NCBI GenBank assembly: GCA_902613595.1 | Contig: CACMHY010000005.1 | Span: forward strand, 1-64,000 | Direction of reading: 5' to 3' | Length of the DNA stretch: 64,000 bases | Source: an uncultured Bacteroidota bacterium | GTDB taxonomy: Bacteria; Bacteroidota; Bacteroidia; Flavobacteriales; Flavobacteriaceae | Shown: positions 17,368 through 27,397 of the stretch, piece by piece | Position numbering within the stretch: position 1 is the first letter of the stretch | Layout: the number at the start of each line of letters is the position of its first letter | Notes under the pieces: model-generated | Database searches by the model: none | What the model was told of the DNA's origin: nothing | What the model saw: the letters and a program-made list of their open reading frames with translations, nothing else | Translations under genes and position numbers: made by a program

Positions 17368-17372
17368 ACCTA

Positions 17373-17475
17373 CAAACGAGGAAGGATTTGACTGATTGCA
17401 AACCTCGAAAAAAAAATGCTAAAGCAGTATTGCTTTTCAAAACTCTTTAGTTAATTCCTTCCAAAAAGCAATGTA
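17373..17475 (+). promoter_or_regulatory. SAM-II-like riboswitch in the metK leader
   Basis: A 5-bp stem CGAGG (17377-17381)/CCTCG (17403-17407) encloses a loop containing GGATTT and GATTGCAAA. This parallels SAM-II aptamers, where a stem encloses GATTT...ATTGCAA. After an A-rich link comes ATGCTAAAG, matching the SAM-II GCTAAA segment. AAGGA in the loop (17382-17386) can pair with TCCTT (17456-17460), giving the pseudoknot that defines the class. An extra hairpin, CTAAAG (17419-17424)/CTTTAG (17445-17450), sits in the long connector as in reported long-loop variants. The 3' pseudoknot strand lies 16 nt before the metK ATG, so SAM binding would plausibly block ribosome entry. SAM-V shares the same core and is the main alternative. 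The gene content downstream (metK, metY, metX) fits SAM control. Confidence 0.75.
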
Positions 17476-18732
17476 ATGTCACATTTTTATACTTCAGAAT
17501 CTGTAAGTGAAGGACACCCTGATAAAATCTCCGATCAAATCAGTGATGCTTTACTTGATAACTTCTTAGCTTTTGATTCTGAAAGTAGAGTGGCATGTGA
17601 AACCCTTGTTACTACTGGTCAGGTTATATTAGCAGGTGAGGTAAAAAGTAAAACCTATCTTGATGTTCAAAATATTGCACGTAATACTATAAACTCTATT
17701 GGGTATACTAAAAGCTCATATCAATTTAGCGGGGATTCCTGTGGTGTAATTTCATTAATTCATGAACAATCACAAGACATTAACAGGGGAGTAGGATCTG
17801 AACTCAAAGAGAAGCAAGGAGCAGGAGATCAAGGAATTATGTTTGGCTATGCTACAAATGAAACAGACACATATATCCCACTTGCACTTCATCTTTCTCA
17901 TCAAATTTTAATTGAGCTTTCCATACTAAGAAAGGAAAATAATTTAATAAAATATCTGCGCCCAGACTCTAAATCCCAAGTGACAATCGAATACGACGAA
18001 AATAATAATCCGTTTCGTGTTGACACAATTGTAATATCAACTCAGCACGATGAGTTTGATTATGATGATAACAGAATGCGAGAAAAAATAAAATCAGACT
18101 TAATTAAAATTTTAATTCCTAGAGTTATAAATAAGCTACCCGATAATTCAAAAAAACTCTTTGGGAATGATATAAAATATCATATAAATCCGACTGGAAA
18201 GTTCGTAATTGGTGGACCCCATGGAGATACTGGTTTGACGGGCAGAAAAATTATAGTAGATACCTATGGTGGTAAAGGAGCACATGGTGGAGGAGCATTC
18301 AGCGGCAAGGATCCAAGCAAGGTTGATCGGAGTGCCGCTTATGCTGCAAGGCACATGGCAAAGAATTTGGTGGCTGCTGGAATAGCTGACGAAATATTAG
18401 TACAAATTAGCTATGCAATAGGAGTAATTGATCCAACCTCCGTAAATATAAACACTTATGGTACCTCAAAACTAAATCTAACTGATGATGAAATCGCAGT
18501 TAGGTCTTCAAAACTTTTTGATTTGAGACCTTACGCTATAGAGCAGCGTCTCAAATTAAGAAACCCAATTTATTTTGAAACTTCTTCTTATGGACATATG
18601 GGGCGTCAGCCTCAGAAGGTTAAAAAAACCTTTAAATCTCCTTACAATGGTGAGATAACTAAAGAGGTGGAATTATTTACTTGGGAAAAACTAGATTATT
18701 TAAAATTAATTAAAAATGAATTTCAATTATGA
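17476..18732 (+). CDS. metK: S-adenosylmethionine synthetase
   Basis: The enzyme makes S-adenosylmethionine from methionine and ATP. The 418 residues carry the standard motifs: ESVSEGHPDKISDQISDALL at the N-terminus, GAGDQGIMFGYA (signature 1), GGPHGDTGLTGRKIIVDTYG and GGGAFSGKDPSKVDRSAAY (signature 2), with the final NPIYFETSSYGHMGR. It heads an operon with metY and metX; its stop codon overlaps the metY ATG (ATGA). The SAM-II-like leader in front gives a direct feedback loop, since the product of this enzyme would be the ligand. Confidence 0.98.
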   Translation: MSHFYTSESVSEGHPDKISDQISDALLDNFLAFDSESRVACETLVTTGQVILAGEVKSKTYLDVQNIARNTINSIGYTKSSYQFSGDSCGVISLIHEQSQDINRGVGSELKEKQGAGDQGIMFGYATNETDTYIPLALHLSHQILIELSILRKENNLIKYLRPDSKSQVTIEYDENNNPFRVDTIVISTQHDEFDYDDNRMREKIKSDLIKILIPRVINKLPDNSKKLFGNDIKYHINPTGKFVIGGPHGDTGLTGRKIIVDTYGGKGAHGGGAFSGKDPSKVDRSAAYAARHMAKNLVAAGIADEILVQISYAIGVIDPTSVNINTYGTSKLNLTDDEIAVRSSKLFDLRPYAIEQRLKLRNPIYFETSSYGHMGRQPQKVKKTFKSPYNGEITKEVELFTWEKLDYLKLIKNEFQL

Positions 18733-22375: not shown

Positions 22376-23248
22376 TTAGGAATTTTTTTCTTTTGATTTT
22401 ATGCTTTCAATTACCACTGTGCTGAGAATTATAATTCCACCTACAACATTTTTAAAATTTGGAATTTCGTTTAATAAAATTACACTCATAATGATACCAA
22501 AAAGTGGTTGGATACTACTTATAATACTTGCAGTACTAATACTGAAATGCGAGAAACTTGAAAGAAAAAGTGTGTGGCCTAATGCTGTTGTAATAAACCC
22601 TAACATAAGTAAATACGGTAAATCAGGTTGAATTTGATAGTCAGAATAAATAAAAAATACAGGTAATAAAATTATTATAACGACAAAGAGTTGATAAATC
22701 ATTTGTATTGATCCATCTGCCATAGAGTTGTGTTTCTTTAAAATTAAGTTTCTTAAAGAGTACGCGAGAGCAGAAAATAGTCCCATTAATAAACCTTGAG
22801 TAGCTTTATTATTAAAATCAAAATTAGGTACCAAAAAGAATACACCAATTAAAATTAAAATTCCAAAAATAATATGTCTTGCTTTTAATTTTACAGATAT
22901 AAATAATGGTTCTAGTAAAACTGTAATAATAGGGTAAGTAAAAAGAGATAACATACCTACAGTGACATTGCTCCATTGCAAAGCAAAAAAATAAGTAATC
23001 CAGTGAATACTCATAAATAGTCCGCTAAGTAATAAAGCTAAGCCATGATTATTTAAGTTTATTTTAAATGAAGTTTTTTTTAATAAGGCATAAATAATTA
23101 AACATAAAATAGCAATCAATGAACGAAACCATATTGTAATTGGAGGCGGGAGAGAAATATATCTTCCCAATGGGCCTGAGGTACTTATAAACAACATAGC
23201 CAGATTTAAAATTATGATATAATAAAGATTATTATTTTTTATGTTCAA
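22376..23248 (-). CDS. EamA/DMT family transporter
   Basis: This inner-membrane permease of the drug/metabolite transporter superfamily probably exports a small metabolite or amino acid. The 290 residues hold ten hydrophobic helices arranged as two EamA repeats. The first contains the STSGPLGRYISLPPPITIWF region with the conserved Arg, and the second contains AYSLRNLILKK and ASIISSIQPLFGIIMSVILL, the typical last-repeat motif. The start is a TTG codon; the nearest downstream ATG (residue 18) would cut the first helix. It is upstream of the GldA-like gene by 24 nt and divergent from the aromatic leader. The substrate is unknown, though the proximity to aromatic amino acid genes may be coincidental. 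Confidence 0.88.
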   Translation of the reverse strand: MNIKNNNLYYIIILNLAMLFISTSGPLGRYISLPPPITIWFRSLIAILCLIIYALLKKTSFKINLNNHGLALLLSGLFMSIHWITYFFALQWSNVTVGMLSLFTYPIITVLLEPLFISVKLKARHIIFGILILIGVFFLVPNFDFNNKATQGLLMGLFSALAYSLRNLILKKHNSMADGSIQMIYQLFVVIIILLPVFFIYSDYQIQPDLPYLLMLGFITTALGHTLFLSSFSHFSISTASIISSIQPLFGIIMSVILLNEIPNFKNVVGGIIILSTVVIESIKSKEKNS

Positions 23249-23293: not shown

Positions 23294-23324
23294 TTTGTTT
23301 TTGAAAAAAGCAATAGTAATTTTG
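23294..23324 (+). promoter_or_regulatory. Bacteroidetes-type promoter of the aromatic amino acid operon
   Basis: TTTG (23294-23297) and TAATTTTG (23317-23324) are separated by 19 nt and match the -33 TTTG and -7 TAnnTTTG elements of Bacteroidetes housekeeping promoters. The box lies 18 nt before the leader-peptide ATG, giving a short 5' end. Confidence 0.7.
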
Positions 23325-23342
23325 TCGAGAAATTATTAATTG

Positions 23343-23408
23343 ATGAAATTATATTCATACTACAATAACTACTATTACTTCTGTATTGAAGAGATCAGGT
23401 CTGTTTAG
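23343..23408 (+). CDS. Tyrosine-rich leader peptide of the attenuator
   Basis: A 21-codon ORF reads MKLYSYYNNYYYFC and continues to a stop at 23406-23408. Six of 21 codons are tyrosine (TAT or TAC), including three in a row at codons 10-12 followed by a phenylalanine codon. Such clustering is very unlikely by chance and is the mark of an amino-acid-sensing leader peptide. A matching promoter lies just upstream, and a terminator lies between this ORF and pheA. The stop codon is placed so that a ribosome reaching it would cover the antiterminator segment at 23392-23399. Confidence 0.85.
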   Translation: MKLYSYYNNYYYFCIEEIRSV

Positions 23409-23462
23409 TATTATGAAAACATTTTATATAAAGTCCTGATCTGTTCAGGACTTTTTTTTTAT
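23392..23462 (+). terminator. Transcription attenuator (terminator/antiterminator) before pheA
   Basis: AAGTCCTGA (23431-23439) and TCAGGACTT (23445-23453) form a perfect 9-bp stem with a 5-nt loop, followed by a run of T residues: a textbook intrinsic terminator. AGATCAGG (23392-23399), at the end of the leader ORF, is perfectly complementary to CCTGATCT (23435-23442), the left arm and loop of that terminator, giving a competing 8-bp antiterminator. A ribosome stalled at the Tyr codons would leave 23392-23399 free, so the antiterminator forms and pheA is transcribed. A ribosome that reaches the stop covers it and the terminator forms. Confidence 0.87.
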
Positions 23463-23463
23463 A

Positions 23464-24297
23464 ATGAAAACTAAGAAAAACATTGCAATACAAGGTAAGA
23501 AGGGATCCTTTCATCATATTGTTGCTGAAAGATATTTTGGGGAAAACCTTTCTTTAATATTATGTGACACTTTTGATAAAACTGTAACTAAACTCATCAA
23601 AGGAGAGGCTGATTATGTTGTAATGGCGATTGAAAATTCAATAGCAGGTTCCATAATACCAAATTATGCACTAATTGATCAGAATAATGTAAAAATTATT
23701 GGAGAATACGGATTAAGTATAAGCCATAATTTTATGGGGTTAAAGGGACAGCAAATTAATGACATTAAAGAAGTTTACTCTCACCCTATGGCATTATTGC
23801 AGTGCAAAAGTTTTTTTAATAATTATCCTCATATACGTCTTGTTGAATCAGAAGACACCGCCGAAGAAGCACAAAGAATATTTAAAAATAACATGAAAGG
23901 TATTGGCGCTATTGCGAGCAAGGAAGCTGCCGAAATGTATAATTTGTCAATTTTCGCTTCCTCTATACAGACAATTAAAAATAATGTCACTCGATTTGTC
24001 ATTCTTAACAATGATGGTAATTTAATTTCAAAAGAAAATATCAATAAAGCTGCCCTTAAATTTATTTTAGATCATCAAAGAGGTAGTTTAGCAGCAATAT
24101 TGAATGTTATGAGTGATTGTCAGCTCAACTTAACAAAAATTCAATCCTTACCTGTAATTGAGACTCCTGGCAAATATGCTTTTTTTGTAGATGTTACCTT
24201 TGATGAGCTTGGACATTATTTAAAAGCAAAAAAATTAATTTCAATAATGGCATCAGAGTTTAAAATTCTTGGGGAATTTACCCAGCATCAAAAATGA
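23464..24297 (+). CDS. pheA: Prephenate dehydratase
   Basis: The enzyme converts prephenate to phenylpyruvate for phenylalanine synthesis. The 277-residue protein opens with IAIQGKKGSFHHIVAERYFG. The core includes IENSIAGSIIPNYALID and the catalytic TRF in NNVTRFVIL. A C-terminal ACT domain (from about residue 197) begins with GSLAAILNVMSDCQLNLTKI, the usual site of phenylalanine inhibition. There is no N-terminal chorismate mutase domain; that activity is fused to aroF in this operon. It is the first structural gene after the attenuator, and the following aminotransferase starts within its stop codon. Confidence 0.96.
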   Translation: MKTKKNIAIQGKKGSFHHIVAERYFGENLSLILCDTFDKTVTKLIKGEADYVVMAIENSIAGSIIPNYALIDQNNVKIIGEYGLSISHNFMGLKGQQINDIKEVYSHPMALLQCKSFFNNYPHIRLVESEDTAEEAQRIFKNNMKGIGAIASKEAAEMYNLSIFASSIQTIKNNVTRFVILNNDGNLISKENINKAALKFILDHQRGSLAAILNVMSDCQLNLTKIQSLPVIETPGKYAFFVDVTFDELGHYLKAKKLISIMASEFKILGEFTQHQK

Positions 24298-25442
24298 AAA
24301 CGGCTAAAAGATTAAATAATATAAAAGAATACTATTTCTCAAGAAAGCTGAGAGAGGTAGGAGAAATGATAAAGGTCGGAAAACCAATAATTAATATGGG
24401 AATCGGCAGTCCAGATTTGGATCCTCACCCTGATATAGTAAAAGCTCTTGAAAAATCAATACTTGAGCCTAAGGCCCACATGTACCAAAATTATAAGGGA
24501 ATACCAGAACTTAGAAAATCTATAACAGAATTTTACAAGACCCATTATGATGTAGATTTGGATCCAGATTCGCAAGTTCTACCGCTCATGGGTTCTAAGG
24601 AAGGAATAATGCATATATCTATGGCTTATCTTAATCCTGGGGATGAAGTTTTGATTCCAAACCCTGGTTATCCGACTTATGCTTCTGTAACAAGATTGAT
24701 GCAAGCTAAAGCAATTACATATGACTTAAAACTTTCTAATGATTGGCAACCTGATTTTAAGGAATTAGAAAATTTAGATACTTCAAAAGTAAAAATCATG
24801 TGGCTAAATTACCCTCATATGCCAACAGGAGCTGAATTTTTAGAATCTACTTTTAGTTTTTTGGTTAAATGGGCTTATGAACGTAATATTCTTTTAGTAA
24901 ATGATAATCCATATAGTTTTATTTTAACTAAAAAACCAAAAAGTATATTATCCATACCTGGTGCTGATTCAGTTGCAGTTGAATTAAATTCTTTAAGTAA
25001 GTCTTTTAATATGGCTGGTTGGAGAGTAGGAATGTTATCTGGAAAAAAATCAGTTATAAGTGAAGTCCTCAAAGTTAAAAGCAATATGGATTCAGGAATG
25101 TTTTTTGGTATTCAAAAAGGTGCTATAGCTGCGTTAAAAATGAAACCTGAATGGTTTGAAAAATTAAATGAAGTCTATAATAAAAGAAAGGAGCTTATTT
25201 TAACACTAATTAATAAAATTGGGGCTAAAATCGAGTCAAAAAGTGTTGGTTTATTTTTGTGGGCTAAAATTCCCGAAGGTAATATTAGTTCGGAAGAATT
25301 CGTAGATAAAATACTTTATGAAAAAAATATATTTATAACACCAGGAACTGTATTTGGTATGCAAGGTGAGGGCTATATTCGTTTTTCACTTTGTGTTTCA
25401 GAAGAAATTATAATTGAAGCTATAAATCGGTTTAAATCATGA
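24294..25442 (+). CDS. Class I/II aminotransferase of the aromatic operon
   Basis: This PLP-dependent transaminase of 382 residues has LPLMGSKEGIMHISMAYLNP and the cofactor loop NPGYPTYASV. The AspAT-type binding segment is LNYPHMPTGA, and the Schiff-base lysine lies in NSLSKSFNMAGWRVGML. RFSLC near the C-terminus supplies the conserved carboxylate-binding Arg. Its position between pheA and tyrA, with 4-nt overlaps on both sides, implies it transaminates phenylpyruvate and 4-hydroxyphenylpyruvate, or an earlier intermediate. Similarity to LL-diaminopimelate aminotransferases is noticeable, so substrate should not be taken as fixed. Confidence 0.9.
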   Translation: MKTAKRLNNIKEYYFSRKLREVGEMIKVGKPIINMGIGSPDLDPHPDIVKALEKSILEPKAHMYQNYKGIPELRKSITEFYKTHYDVDLDPDSQVLPLMGSKEGIMHISMAYLNPGDEVLIPNPGYPTYASVTRLMQAKAITYDLKLSNDWQPDFKELENLDTSKVKIMWLNYPHMPTGAEFLESTFSFLVKWAYERNILLVNDNPYSFILTKKPKSILSIPGADSVAVELNSLSKSFNMAGWRVGMLSGKKSVISEVLKVKSNMDSGMFFGIQKGAIAALKMKPEWFEKLNEVYNKRKELILTLINKIGAKIESKSVGLFLWAKIPEGNISSEEFVDKILYEKNIFITPGTVFGMQGEGYIRFSLCVSEEIIIEAINRFKS

Positions 25443-26287
25443 AAATAGGTGTAATTGGTCTTGGATTAATTGGAGGCTCATTTGCTTTATCAGCAAAAAA
25501 AAGTATAAGAGATTGTAGTTTATTTGGGATGGATAATAATCCTGAACACTTAAGTCAAGCATTTGAATTAGGAATTATAAATCAATCCTTGACACCTTTA
25601 AATTACTCTCATATGGATGTAATTATTTTAGCGATACCTGTTAATGCAGTTTTAGAAATAATTTTGACACTTTTAGACCAAATAAATGATAACGCCCTTT
25701 TAATTGATGTTGGATCAACTAAGGAAATGATATGTGAAAAAGTAAAACTGCATTCTAAGCGTAGTCAATTTTTAGCAACTCACCCAATTGCAGGAACAGA
25801 GTTTTCTGGACCTTCAGCTGCAAACAAAAATCTATTCAAAGGGAAAGCTCAAATTTTGTGTGAAGTAAATAAAACAAGACCTGATCTATTGGAATGGGCA
25901 GTCCAATGGTTTAAAAATATGGAAATGAAACTTCAAGAGATGGATCCTATTGAACACGATCAACACATAGCATATGTCTCACATATTTCTCATATTTCTT
26001 CATTTATGCTTGGTAAAACTGTAATGGAGAAAGAAAAAGATGAGAAAGCAATTTTTGATATGGCTGGAAGTGGTTTCGCCTCTACTGTGAGATTAGCAAA
26101 AAGCTCTCCCTCTATGTGGGCACCAATTTTTATTCAGAATAAAAAAAATATTTTAGACGTATTGACAGAATATATTTCAAATTTGGAAGAATTTAAAAAA
26201 TTAATACAGGCTAATGATTACAAGTCAATATATGAGAAAATTGAGCAGACAAATGCCATCAAAGGAATTTTAGAGGGAATAAAATAA
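25439..26287 (+). CDS. tyrA: Prephenate dehydrogenase
   Basis: The enzyme oxidatively decarboxylates prephenate to 4-hydroxyphenylpyruvate for tyrosine. The 282 residues start with a Rossmann nucleotide-binding motif GVIGLGLIGGSFALSA. Substrate-site motifs include DVGSTKEMI, THPIAGTEFSGP, EHDQHIAYVSHISHI and the late GSGFASTVRLAKSSP. No ACT regulatory domain is present, unlike some TyrA proteins, which leaves attenuation and DAHP synthase regulation as the likely control points. It starts within the stop codon of the aminotransferase gene. Confidence 0.95.
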   Translation: MKIGVIGLGLIGGSFALSAKKSIRDCSLFGMDNNPEHLSQAFELGIINQSLTPLNYSHMDVIILAIPVNAVLEIILTLLDQINDNALLIDVGSTKEMICEKVKLHSKRSQFLATHPIAGTEFSGPSAANKNLFKGKAQILCEVNKTRPDLLEWAVQWFKNMEMKLQEMDPIEHDQHIAYVSHISHISSFMLGKTVMEKEKDEKAIFDMAGSGFASTVRLAKSSPSMWAPIFIQNKKNILDVLTEYISNLEEFKKLIQANDYKSIYEKIEQTNAIKGILEGIK

Positions 26288-26311: not shown

Positions 26312-27397
26312 ATGGAAAATAAAAAGAACATGCGCAAGTGGTTAAATGATTTTGAACTTAGTCATCCCCTGGTTATAGGTGGTCCATGTAGCGCTGAAAC
26401 AGAAGAGCAAGTGCTAAAGATCGCAAATCAGTTGAAAGATAGTGATGTTAGCGTATACAGAGCGGGAATTTGGAAACCAAGAACACGCCCTGGTATGTTT
26501 GAGGGCGTAGGGGCAATAGGGTTGAACTGGCTAAAAAAAGTAAAAGAGCAAACAGGTTTATTAACTGCTACAGAGGTAGCAAATAAAGATCATGTTAAAT
26601 TAGCTATTGAAAATGACATTGATATTTTATGGATTGGAGCCCGGTCTACAGTTAGTCCTTTCATTATGCAAGAATTAGCTGACGCTTTGGAAGGAACTGA
26701 GAAAATTATTTTGGTAAAAAACCCAGTTAACCCAGACTTAGCGCTATGGTTAGGAGGCGTTGAACGTCTTTATAGCGCAAAGATTAGAAAGTTAGGTCTA
26801 ATTCACCGCGGATTCTCAACTTATGAGAAAACTAAATACCGAAATAATCCTGAATGGCAAATAGCAATTGAGGTAAAAAATCGTTTTCCAGACCTTCCAA
26901 TGATATGCGACCCTTCACATATTTCAGGACGCAGAGATTTGATTTTTGATATTTCACAAACAGCTTTAGATCTCAACTTTGATGGATTGATGATAGAATC
27001 TCATTGGGATCCAGATAATGCTTGGAGCGATGCTAAACAGCAGGTTACCCCTTCGCGTTTAATTGAGATTATGCGAGATTTAAAAGTGAGAAATAAAACA
27101 ACTGAAGAAGAGGCATACAAAAATAAGCTAGGTTCTCTAAGAGCTCAAATTGATGTTGCTGATCAAACACTTCTTGATGCATTAGGAAAACGAATGAAAA
27201 TTGCAAAGGAAATAGGATTATTGAAAAAAGATAATAACGTTGCTGTTCTCCAAAATAAGAGGTGGAATGAAATATTAGGTAAAATGATTTTAGATGGACA
27301 AGAGCGTGAATTGTCTGAAGAATTTATATTGAGAGTTTTTAAAGCAATTCATCAGGAATCAATTAATAAACAGGATAAAATTTTAAATAAAAATTAA
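26312..27397 (+). CDS. aroF: DAHP synthase – chorismate mutase fusion
   Basis: This 361-residue fusion catalyses the first committed step of the shikimate pathway and the chorismate-to-prephenate step. Residues 1-265 form a type I DAHP synthase with GGPCSAETEEQVLKIA, YRAGIWKPRTRPG, IGARSTVSPF, VKNPVNPDLALWLGG, the IHRGF motif, CDPSHISGRRD and IESHWDPDNAW. The last ~85 residues are an AroQ-type chorismate mutase with LRAQIDVADQTLLDALGKRM and IAKEIGLLKKDNN. C-terminal fusion of this kind is frequent in Bacteroidetes, and the mutase domain is thought to give prephenate or chorismate feedback. It follows tyrA by 24 nt in the attenuated operon. Confidence 0.96.
   Translation: MENKKNMRKWLNDFELSHPLVIGGPCSAETEEQVLKIANQLKDSDVSVYRAGIWKPRTRPGMFEGVGAIGLNWLKKVKEQTGLLTATEVANKDHVKLAIENDIDILWIGARSTVSPFIMQELADALEGTEKIILVKNPVNPDLALWLGGVERLYSAKIRKLGLIHRGFSTYEKTKYRNNPEWQIAIEVKNRFPDLPMICDPSHISGRRDLIFDISQTALDLNFDGLMIESHWDPDNAWSDAKQQVTPSRLIEIMRDLKVRNKTTEEEAYKNKLGSLRAQIDVADQTLLDALGKRMKIAKEIGLLKKDNNVAVLQNKRWNEILGKMILDGQERELSEEFILRVFKAIHQESINKQDKILNKN

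Follow-up and report, generated by a model that had tools for sequence, protein, structure and literature searches.

A probable ribosome-mediated attenuator with a tyrosine-weighted leader peptide upstream of the pheA operon in an uncultured member of the Flavobacteriaceae

The leader stretch and the genes around it

The window (i.e., the whole 64,000-nucleotide stretch of contig CACMHY010000005.1 that was analyzed) contains a leader stretch at positions 23294-23462 (plus strand), which is flanked by pheA and by a divergently oriented gene for an EamA-type transporter. The pheA gene (23464..24297, plus strand) encodes a prephenate dehydratase (PF00800, together with a weak ACT-domain match below the cut-off), in which the domain search found no match to a chorismate mutase domain. 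It is followed on the same strand by genes encoding a class I/II aminotransferase (24294..25442; PF00155), the prephenate dehydrogenase TyrA (25439..26287; NF006307, above the cut-off), and a DAHP synthase fused to chorismate mutase (aroF/CM; 26312..27397; PF00793 and PF01817). A previous reading of the locus, which was made from the sequence only, described a pheA-tyrA-aroF operon. These genes are indeed present; pheA and tyrA are separated by the aminotransferase gene, and the aroF product includes a chorismate mutase domain. Among relatives, all four genes occur in this order in 17 of the 20 loci of one set and in 9 of the 13 of another. The divergent neighbor (22376-23248, minus strand) is weakly YddG-like, below the cut-off, and might export aromatic amino acids; a match was found upstream of pheA in 18 of the 30 genus loci inspected, a set that includes truncated loci. 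Elsewhere in the window, a SAM-II riboswitch (17372-17432, plus strand; 76.5 bits, above the Rfam cut-off) precedes an ORF starting at 17476.

The promoter (23294..23324, plus strand) consists of TTTG at 23294-23297, a 19-nucleotide spacer, and TAATTTTG at 23317-23324. The sequence-only reading had also placed a promoter here. The TAATTTTG element fits the TAnnTTTG box of Flavobacterium and was absent from the output of a generic sigma-70 scan. Both the box and the upstream TTTG are also present in the genus alignment. Since one study positions the Flavobacterium box at -12 to -5 (PMC9723704), transcription is predicted to start near position 23329.

The leader ORF (MKLYSYYNNYYYFCIEEIRSV; 23343..23408, plus strand) has 21 codons, including six Tyr codons and one Phe codon, with three consecutive Tyr codons followed directly by Phe, and ends at a stop codon, exactly as had been described. 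Thus, like a leader-peptide attenuator, it is rich in codons for the products of its operon. Among 56 upstream regions in the window, only that of pheA includes a short ORF with at least 7 Phe/Tyr codons in 13, and this region has a terminator; one other region reaches 6 in 13 and has none. The intrinsic terminator (23430..23462, plus strand) comprises a stem-loop of 10 base pairs (23430-23454; previously read as 9) and a T tract, and is conserved in the genus alignments. A single terminator-like site occurs in 801 bases (shuffle mean, 0.1), and the region 23425-23463 has a fold z score of -5.3. It does not represent the end of an upstream gene, because the neighbor at 22376-23248 is on the opposite strand.

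Segment 2 of the leader (AGATCAGG; 23392..23399, plus strand) is a candidate antiterminator, all 8 bases of which are complementary to 23435-23442. The perfect pairing noted earlier therefore stands, but its target is not the left arm alone (i.e., five left-arm bases and three loop bases). The antiterminator is the predicted fold of the 84 bases from 23380 onward (-23.6 kcal/mol; z = -3.6). For 23320-23463, the predicted fold is a 1:2 (protector) hairpin together with the terminator (-28.9 kcal/mol; z = -2.4).

Conservation of the leader in the genus and the class

The sequence-only reading had proposed that relatives be checked for conservation. We searched 120 genomes, including that of the window, at the protein level and found pheA in 86; the upstream DNA was read for 80 of them, the other six being one gene without a start and five very distant hits. 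A class-wide search gave a match in 73 of 247 genomes, of which 60 were read, one (G000) was already included, and 12 were left out, and a scan of named genomes contributed the best 80 of 586 loci. Removal of entries with identical last 200 bases left 214 of 220 upstream regions, among which at least one genome (L101/L203) probably still appears two times.

A short ORF with at least 6 Phe/Tyr codons in 13 was found in 187 of the 214 distinct regions and in 8.9% of 2,140 shuffles; since the sequences are related, these counts are not independent. The corresponding values were 177 regions versus 1.7% of the 2,140 shuffles for at least 7 codons, and 143 regions versus 0.3% for at least 8. Some of the 187 ORFs must be due to chance (e.g., L075). 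A terminator followed 170 of the 187 leaders, and the 17 that lacked one according to a second finder were dropped from later counts. The 27 regions below the threshold include all eight of family f27 and all three of family f30. Two others (G086 and G097) are one residue short and have a terminator. In G050 and Gelidibacter, also below the threshold, the leader or its tail lies with the terminator further upstream, displaced by repeats. Four short-repeat copies are located between the attenuator terminator and pheA in both the Gelidibacter locus (L196; approximately 1095-1500) and that of G050 (L252), and most of these copies have a GC-rich hairpin. A Trp leader was considered for family f30 (G207, G236, and G351) and rejected, as the short Trp ORFs fall within a longer open frame just upstream of pheA, which matches EPSP synthase in G207, the one of the three genomes tested. 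In the loci of this family (L108, L110, and L113), the open frame reaches pheA, and no aromatic leader precedes the gene.

Within the genus, a pheA match was obtained for 33 of 38 genomes, and a Phe/Tyr-rich leader precedes it in all 33. A covariance model built from 28 genus leaders matched all 33 at pheA, including the five outside the build. A second match in G005 lies next to a second pheA fragment, while the window's genome yielded no further match at an E value of 0.001. A candidate second aromatic leader in G095 (contig C21; E = 9e-4) was rejected, as it is a terminator after another gene. The model was too narrow outside the genus (2 of 23 genomes matched, one of them spuriously). The conservation in relatives supports the proposal of an attenuator with codons matching the operon's products. 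On the basis of these sequences, attenuators of a comparable kind very probably precede pheA across the class, with Phe and Tyr codons mixed.

Pairing partners and computed switch behavior

The RNAalifold consensus of the 28 genus leaders contains both the terminator and a 1:2 hairpin that joins the Tyr codons to the end of the ORF. In this consensus, segment 1 of the predicted protector (Tyr codons 6-7; 23358..23364, plus strand) pairs with 23404..23410 (plus strand), which spans the leader stop codon, and six of the seven pairs are kept in the window; the window's own minimum free energy (MFE) structure instead pairs 23354-23363 with 23408-23417. Pairing in the outer 1:2 helix holds in 93.4% of the alignment cells, and two of its seven pairs have changed on both sides; for the whole consensus structure, the number of pairs with two-sided changes was equaled by 36 of 500 shuffles. 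The choice of synonymous codons favors leader folding on average (mean MFE z = -1.06 for four leaders of the window's clade, -1.71 for 29 genus leaders, and -1.54 for 137 others), while the signal of the window's leader is mixed (1:2 duplex z = -1.88; MFE z = -0.23). The consensus hairpin and the average codon bias make a full classical design with a 1:2 protector probable. This departs from the earlier view of a minimal design lacking that hairpin, although the codon preference for it is weak in the window itself.

Segments were also found to pair preferentially with their own terminators. In the window, the segment-arm pairing amounts to -15.4 kcal/mol, compared with a mean of -7.5 kcal/mol with other genomes' arms, 1.4% of which are equally good. 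Across lineages, segments average -11.4 kcal/mol with their own terminator and -7.9 kcal/mol with foreign arms, and for 37 of 39 arm cores, the own arm gave the better average. The median rank of own arms among foreign ones was 17% (43 of 158 in the top 5%). For antiterminator complementarity, 106 of 172 leaders lie above the 95% null. The antiterminator helix of the genus, formed by AGGACTTT and AAAGTCCT, shows pairing in 91.1% of cells, and a search within the genus for compensatory changes in this helix found none. The window's clade retains the AGG:CCT core, but its helix is extended in the opposite direction, to AGATCAGG:CCTGATCT, and a single mismatch is present in each of the other three loci (internal in L002; at the end in L003 and L004).

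We computed terminator probabilities for ribosomes stalled along the leader, with the leading edge placed 12 bases beyond the first A-site base. For the window, the probability was 0.88 without a ribosome, 0.02 to 0.64 (mostly around one half) with the A site on codons 2 to 13, and 1.00 from codon 14 on. Every Tyr codon and the Phe codon are thus on the antitermination side. The predicted antiterminator would be blocked by a ribosome at the stop codon and free on a stall, as expected of an attenuator. In the same scan, the Escherichia coli pheL leader behaved like that of the window (i.e., the probability falls on the Phe codons and rises at the end). At equilibrium, however, the value flipped below 0.5 in only 54 of 170 leaders (3 of 33 in the genus and 51 of 137 others). 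The mean probabilities at Phe/Tyr codons were 0.94 (genus) and 0.78 (others), so that the full terminator is favored in most relatives. Of the four leaders in the window's clade, two (L001 and L003) flip; the value for L002 is 0.9 or higher throughout, and that for L004 never falls below 0.8.

A terminator that is favored at equilibrium even on a stall implies that the mechanism needs co-transcriptional ordering. Given the small number of equilibrium switches, we also computed transcripts cut before the right arm. In these, the left arm was held on Phe/Tyr stalls and freed at the stop codon in 165 of 170 leaders. Shuffled segments held the arm too, at 0.35 to 0.44 versus 0.58 to 0.68 for real ones, and in 71 of 170 leaders none of 15 shuffles reached the real value. 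Without a ribosome, the arm was held almost as well as on a stall (0.64, 0.46, and 0.52). The effect of the protector is therefore not visible in the cut-transcript calculation, which leaves ribosome-free termination as the step of the mechanism with the least support.

Amino acids probably sensed, alternative explanations, and relation to known attenuators

When 28 genus leaders are aligned with MAFFT, Phe codon 13 begins with TT in every sequence, and the first bases of the preceding Tyr codons are retained. Third bases switch among 33 anchored leaders (TAT in 24 and TAC in 9 at position -2; TTC in 28 and TTT in 5 at position 0, where Phe stands by construction because the table is anchored on the last aromatic triplet). 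TAC at position -1 is kept in 29 of the 33, which would fit a structural constraint. The conservation of the Phe codon beside the Tyr run suggests that phenylalanine is probably sensed as well as tyrosine, and sensing of tyrosine only was rejected as a certainty for the same reason.

The leaders of the window's clade (G000, G010, G029, and G016), with 6 or 7 Tyr codons and one Phe codon, have Tyr fractions of 0.86 to 0.88, the top of all 187. The other 29 genus leaders range from 0.43 to 0.78 (median, 0.56), and the remaining 154 range from 0.0 to 0.67 (median, 0.40), a few of these (e.g., L075) being probably chance ORFs. In a tree of pheA proteins (38 rows, midpoint-rooted for drawing), the four Tyr-heavy genomes form a clade inside the genus (support, 100/99) that adjoins G020 (three Tyr and four Phe codons; support, 97/77). 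Because of this nesting, the Tyr weighting looks derived in the window's clade, in which tyrosine would be the main in vivo signal. The sequence-only reading had proposed a tyrosine-sensing and possibly lineage-specific element. The leader is Tyr-heavy as stated, but the tyrosine-sensing view is only partly supported, given the Phe codon conserved in all 28 aligned leaders, the mixed leaders of relatives, and a Phe-only genome (G095). Likewise, the Tyr bias and the antiterminator register are specific to four genomes, while the element itself is not lineage specific.

G095 carries two tandem leaders, both Phe-only, and has no tyrA match in the fetched stretch. The idea that Tyr codons track the presence of tyrA in the operon was not borne out, as G044 and G253, without an adjacent tyrA match, still keep them. 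Tandem aromatic leader ORFs precede pheA in L080 (G095), L152 (G287), and L141 (G250), each followed by a hairpin and a T run as judged by eye, and two aromatic ORFs are also listed before pheA in L159 (G173). We tentatively propose, at somewhat less than an even chance, that the class-wide attenuator is an evolvable two-amino-acid dial. Mixed leaders would respond to scarcity of either Phe or Tyr, the ratio would drift from Phe-only (G095) to Tyr-dominant, and the window's clade would have been retuned to tyrosine with a move of its antiterminator register. If so, this would be a leader-peptide attenuator sensing mainly tyrosine, a kind of which our literature searches found no example.

The hairpin is located just before the pheA start codon, and it might block translation initiation there, making the leader a mainly translational or a dual control element. 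In the window and the genus, the pheA ATG does follow the end of the T tract by 2 to about 10 bases, but a sequestering hairpin would not need this tract, which is conserved, and in four genomes of the same family (G055, G056, G054, and G038), the hairpin ends approximately 59 to 66 bases before the start, as extrapolated from the protein match. We consider this mode of control improbable. A constitutive terminator that merely lowers expression, behind an ORF that is Tyr-rich by chance, would be in keeping with the fact that AT-rich DNA yields short Phe/Tyr-rich ORFs, since 1.7% of shuffles match the window's density. That density, however, recurs in 177 of the 214 relatives' regions, the aromatic codons of the genus leaders are kept despite synonymous change, and both the own-partner pairing and the average codon bias speak against coincidence. 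A chance ORF is thus strongly disfavored, and its probability appears very small.

The ORF would also be incidental if the region were a metabolite- or protein-sensing 5' element (i.e., a riboswitch, a T-box, or the target of an RNA-binding regulator). The region is structured, and PMC9723704 ranks the pheA 5' element, which has no Rfam hit, among the probably original cis-regulatory elements. Nevertheless, the conserved parts are the codon tract and the arms, and no Rfam family reached its cut-off at the element in the window or in 14 relatives' loci. The best subthreshold match at the window's element was to the leader of the Thr operon (Thr_leader; 28.6 bits versus a cut-off of 55), which is also a leader-peptide attenuator. 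A sensing element of this type therefore seems very unlikely to us, and ribosome-mediated attenuation is the reading that we retain.

The closest known counterpart is the E. coli pheL-pheA system (Rfam Phe_leader), which shares with the window's element an aromatic codon run, alternative pairings, and the control of prephenate dehydratase. It has Phe codons and no Tyr codons, whereas the window's leader is Tyr-weighted and precedes a joint Phe/Tyr/DAHP operon. Phe_leader had no match in the window, either at the gathering cut-off or among the 27 matches up to an E value of 10. In enteric bacteria, tyrosine control of aromatic synthesis is exerted via the TyrR repressor. A comparative study of proteobacterial attenuators by Vitreschak et al. 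reportedly also predicted some in Bacteroidetes/Chlorobi. Within the mostly open-access literature searched, we found no description of a Tyr-codon leader attenuator. The window's genome itself has a His-rich leader ORF before hisG (MKTLLHHIHHFENCSNEK; C6:77217-77273; L241) and a Trp-Trp leader ORF before trpE (MKNFICNINWWYAEQQILV; C1:358457-358516; L243), each followed by a terminator-like hairpin and a T run as seen by eye. These are likened to the pheA leader through ORF and hairpin, and they differ from it in codons and operons.

For Flavobacterium psychrophilum, PMC9723704 describes a structured 5' element upstream of pheA that occurs in other genera and lacks an Rfam hit, and it mentions "strong clues" of leader-peptide attenuation before amino acid operons. 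This element shares its gene and bacterial family with that of the window, and the two are likely identical. Thus, a structured pheA 5' element in the Flavobacteriaceae and the suspected leader attenuation of amino acid operons are already in print. Long 5' regions with short ORFs reminiscent of leader peptides are described for Bacteroides thetaiotaomicron in PMC7366714. The actinobacterial trp and leuS attenuators, as presented in PMC1262725, have a classical leader peptide, antiterminator, and terminator like the window's element. The same paper names T-boxes as the RNA regulators for tyrosine; upstream of the phenylalanine and tyrosine operons of Actinobacteria, it found no conserved RNA structures.

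Overall, we consider it very likely that the element is a ribosome-mediated transcription attenuator preceding the pheA-aminotransferase-tyrA-aroF/CM operon. The basis is provided by the sequence parts, their conservation, the own-partner pairing across lineages, the average codon bias, and the predicted structures, and from these we infer the transcription start, stalling, read-through, and the amino acids sensed. RNA polymerase would start near 23329, with a ribosome following on the leader ORF. When charged tRNA-Tyr (or tRNA-Phe, via codon 13) is scarce, the ribosome would stall on codons 4 to 13, and segment 2 (23392-23399) would remain accessible and could bind the left arm and loop (23435-23442) ahead of right-arm synthesis, so that the polymerase may continue into pheA, the aminotransferase gene, tyrA, and aroF. 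When both charged tRNAs are plentiful, a ribosome at the stop codon would cover segment 2, the terminator would form, and transcription would end. In the weakest step, without a ribosome, the 1:2 hairpin probably permits the terminator to form. In the window's clade, the signal should lean toward tyrosine.

The attenuator is very probably of a known kind and class-wide in occurrence, and its distinctive part is the lineage-specific tyrosine weighting. The more than 100 natural variants, which extend from Phe-only to Tyr-dominant, make the relationship of codon identity and position to attenuator specificity directly testable. Joint reading of Tyr and Phe codons by one leader would provide a single switch for a joint Phe/Tyr/DAHP operon.
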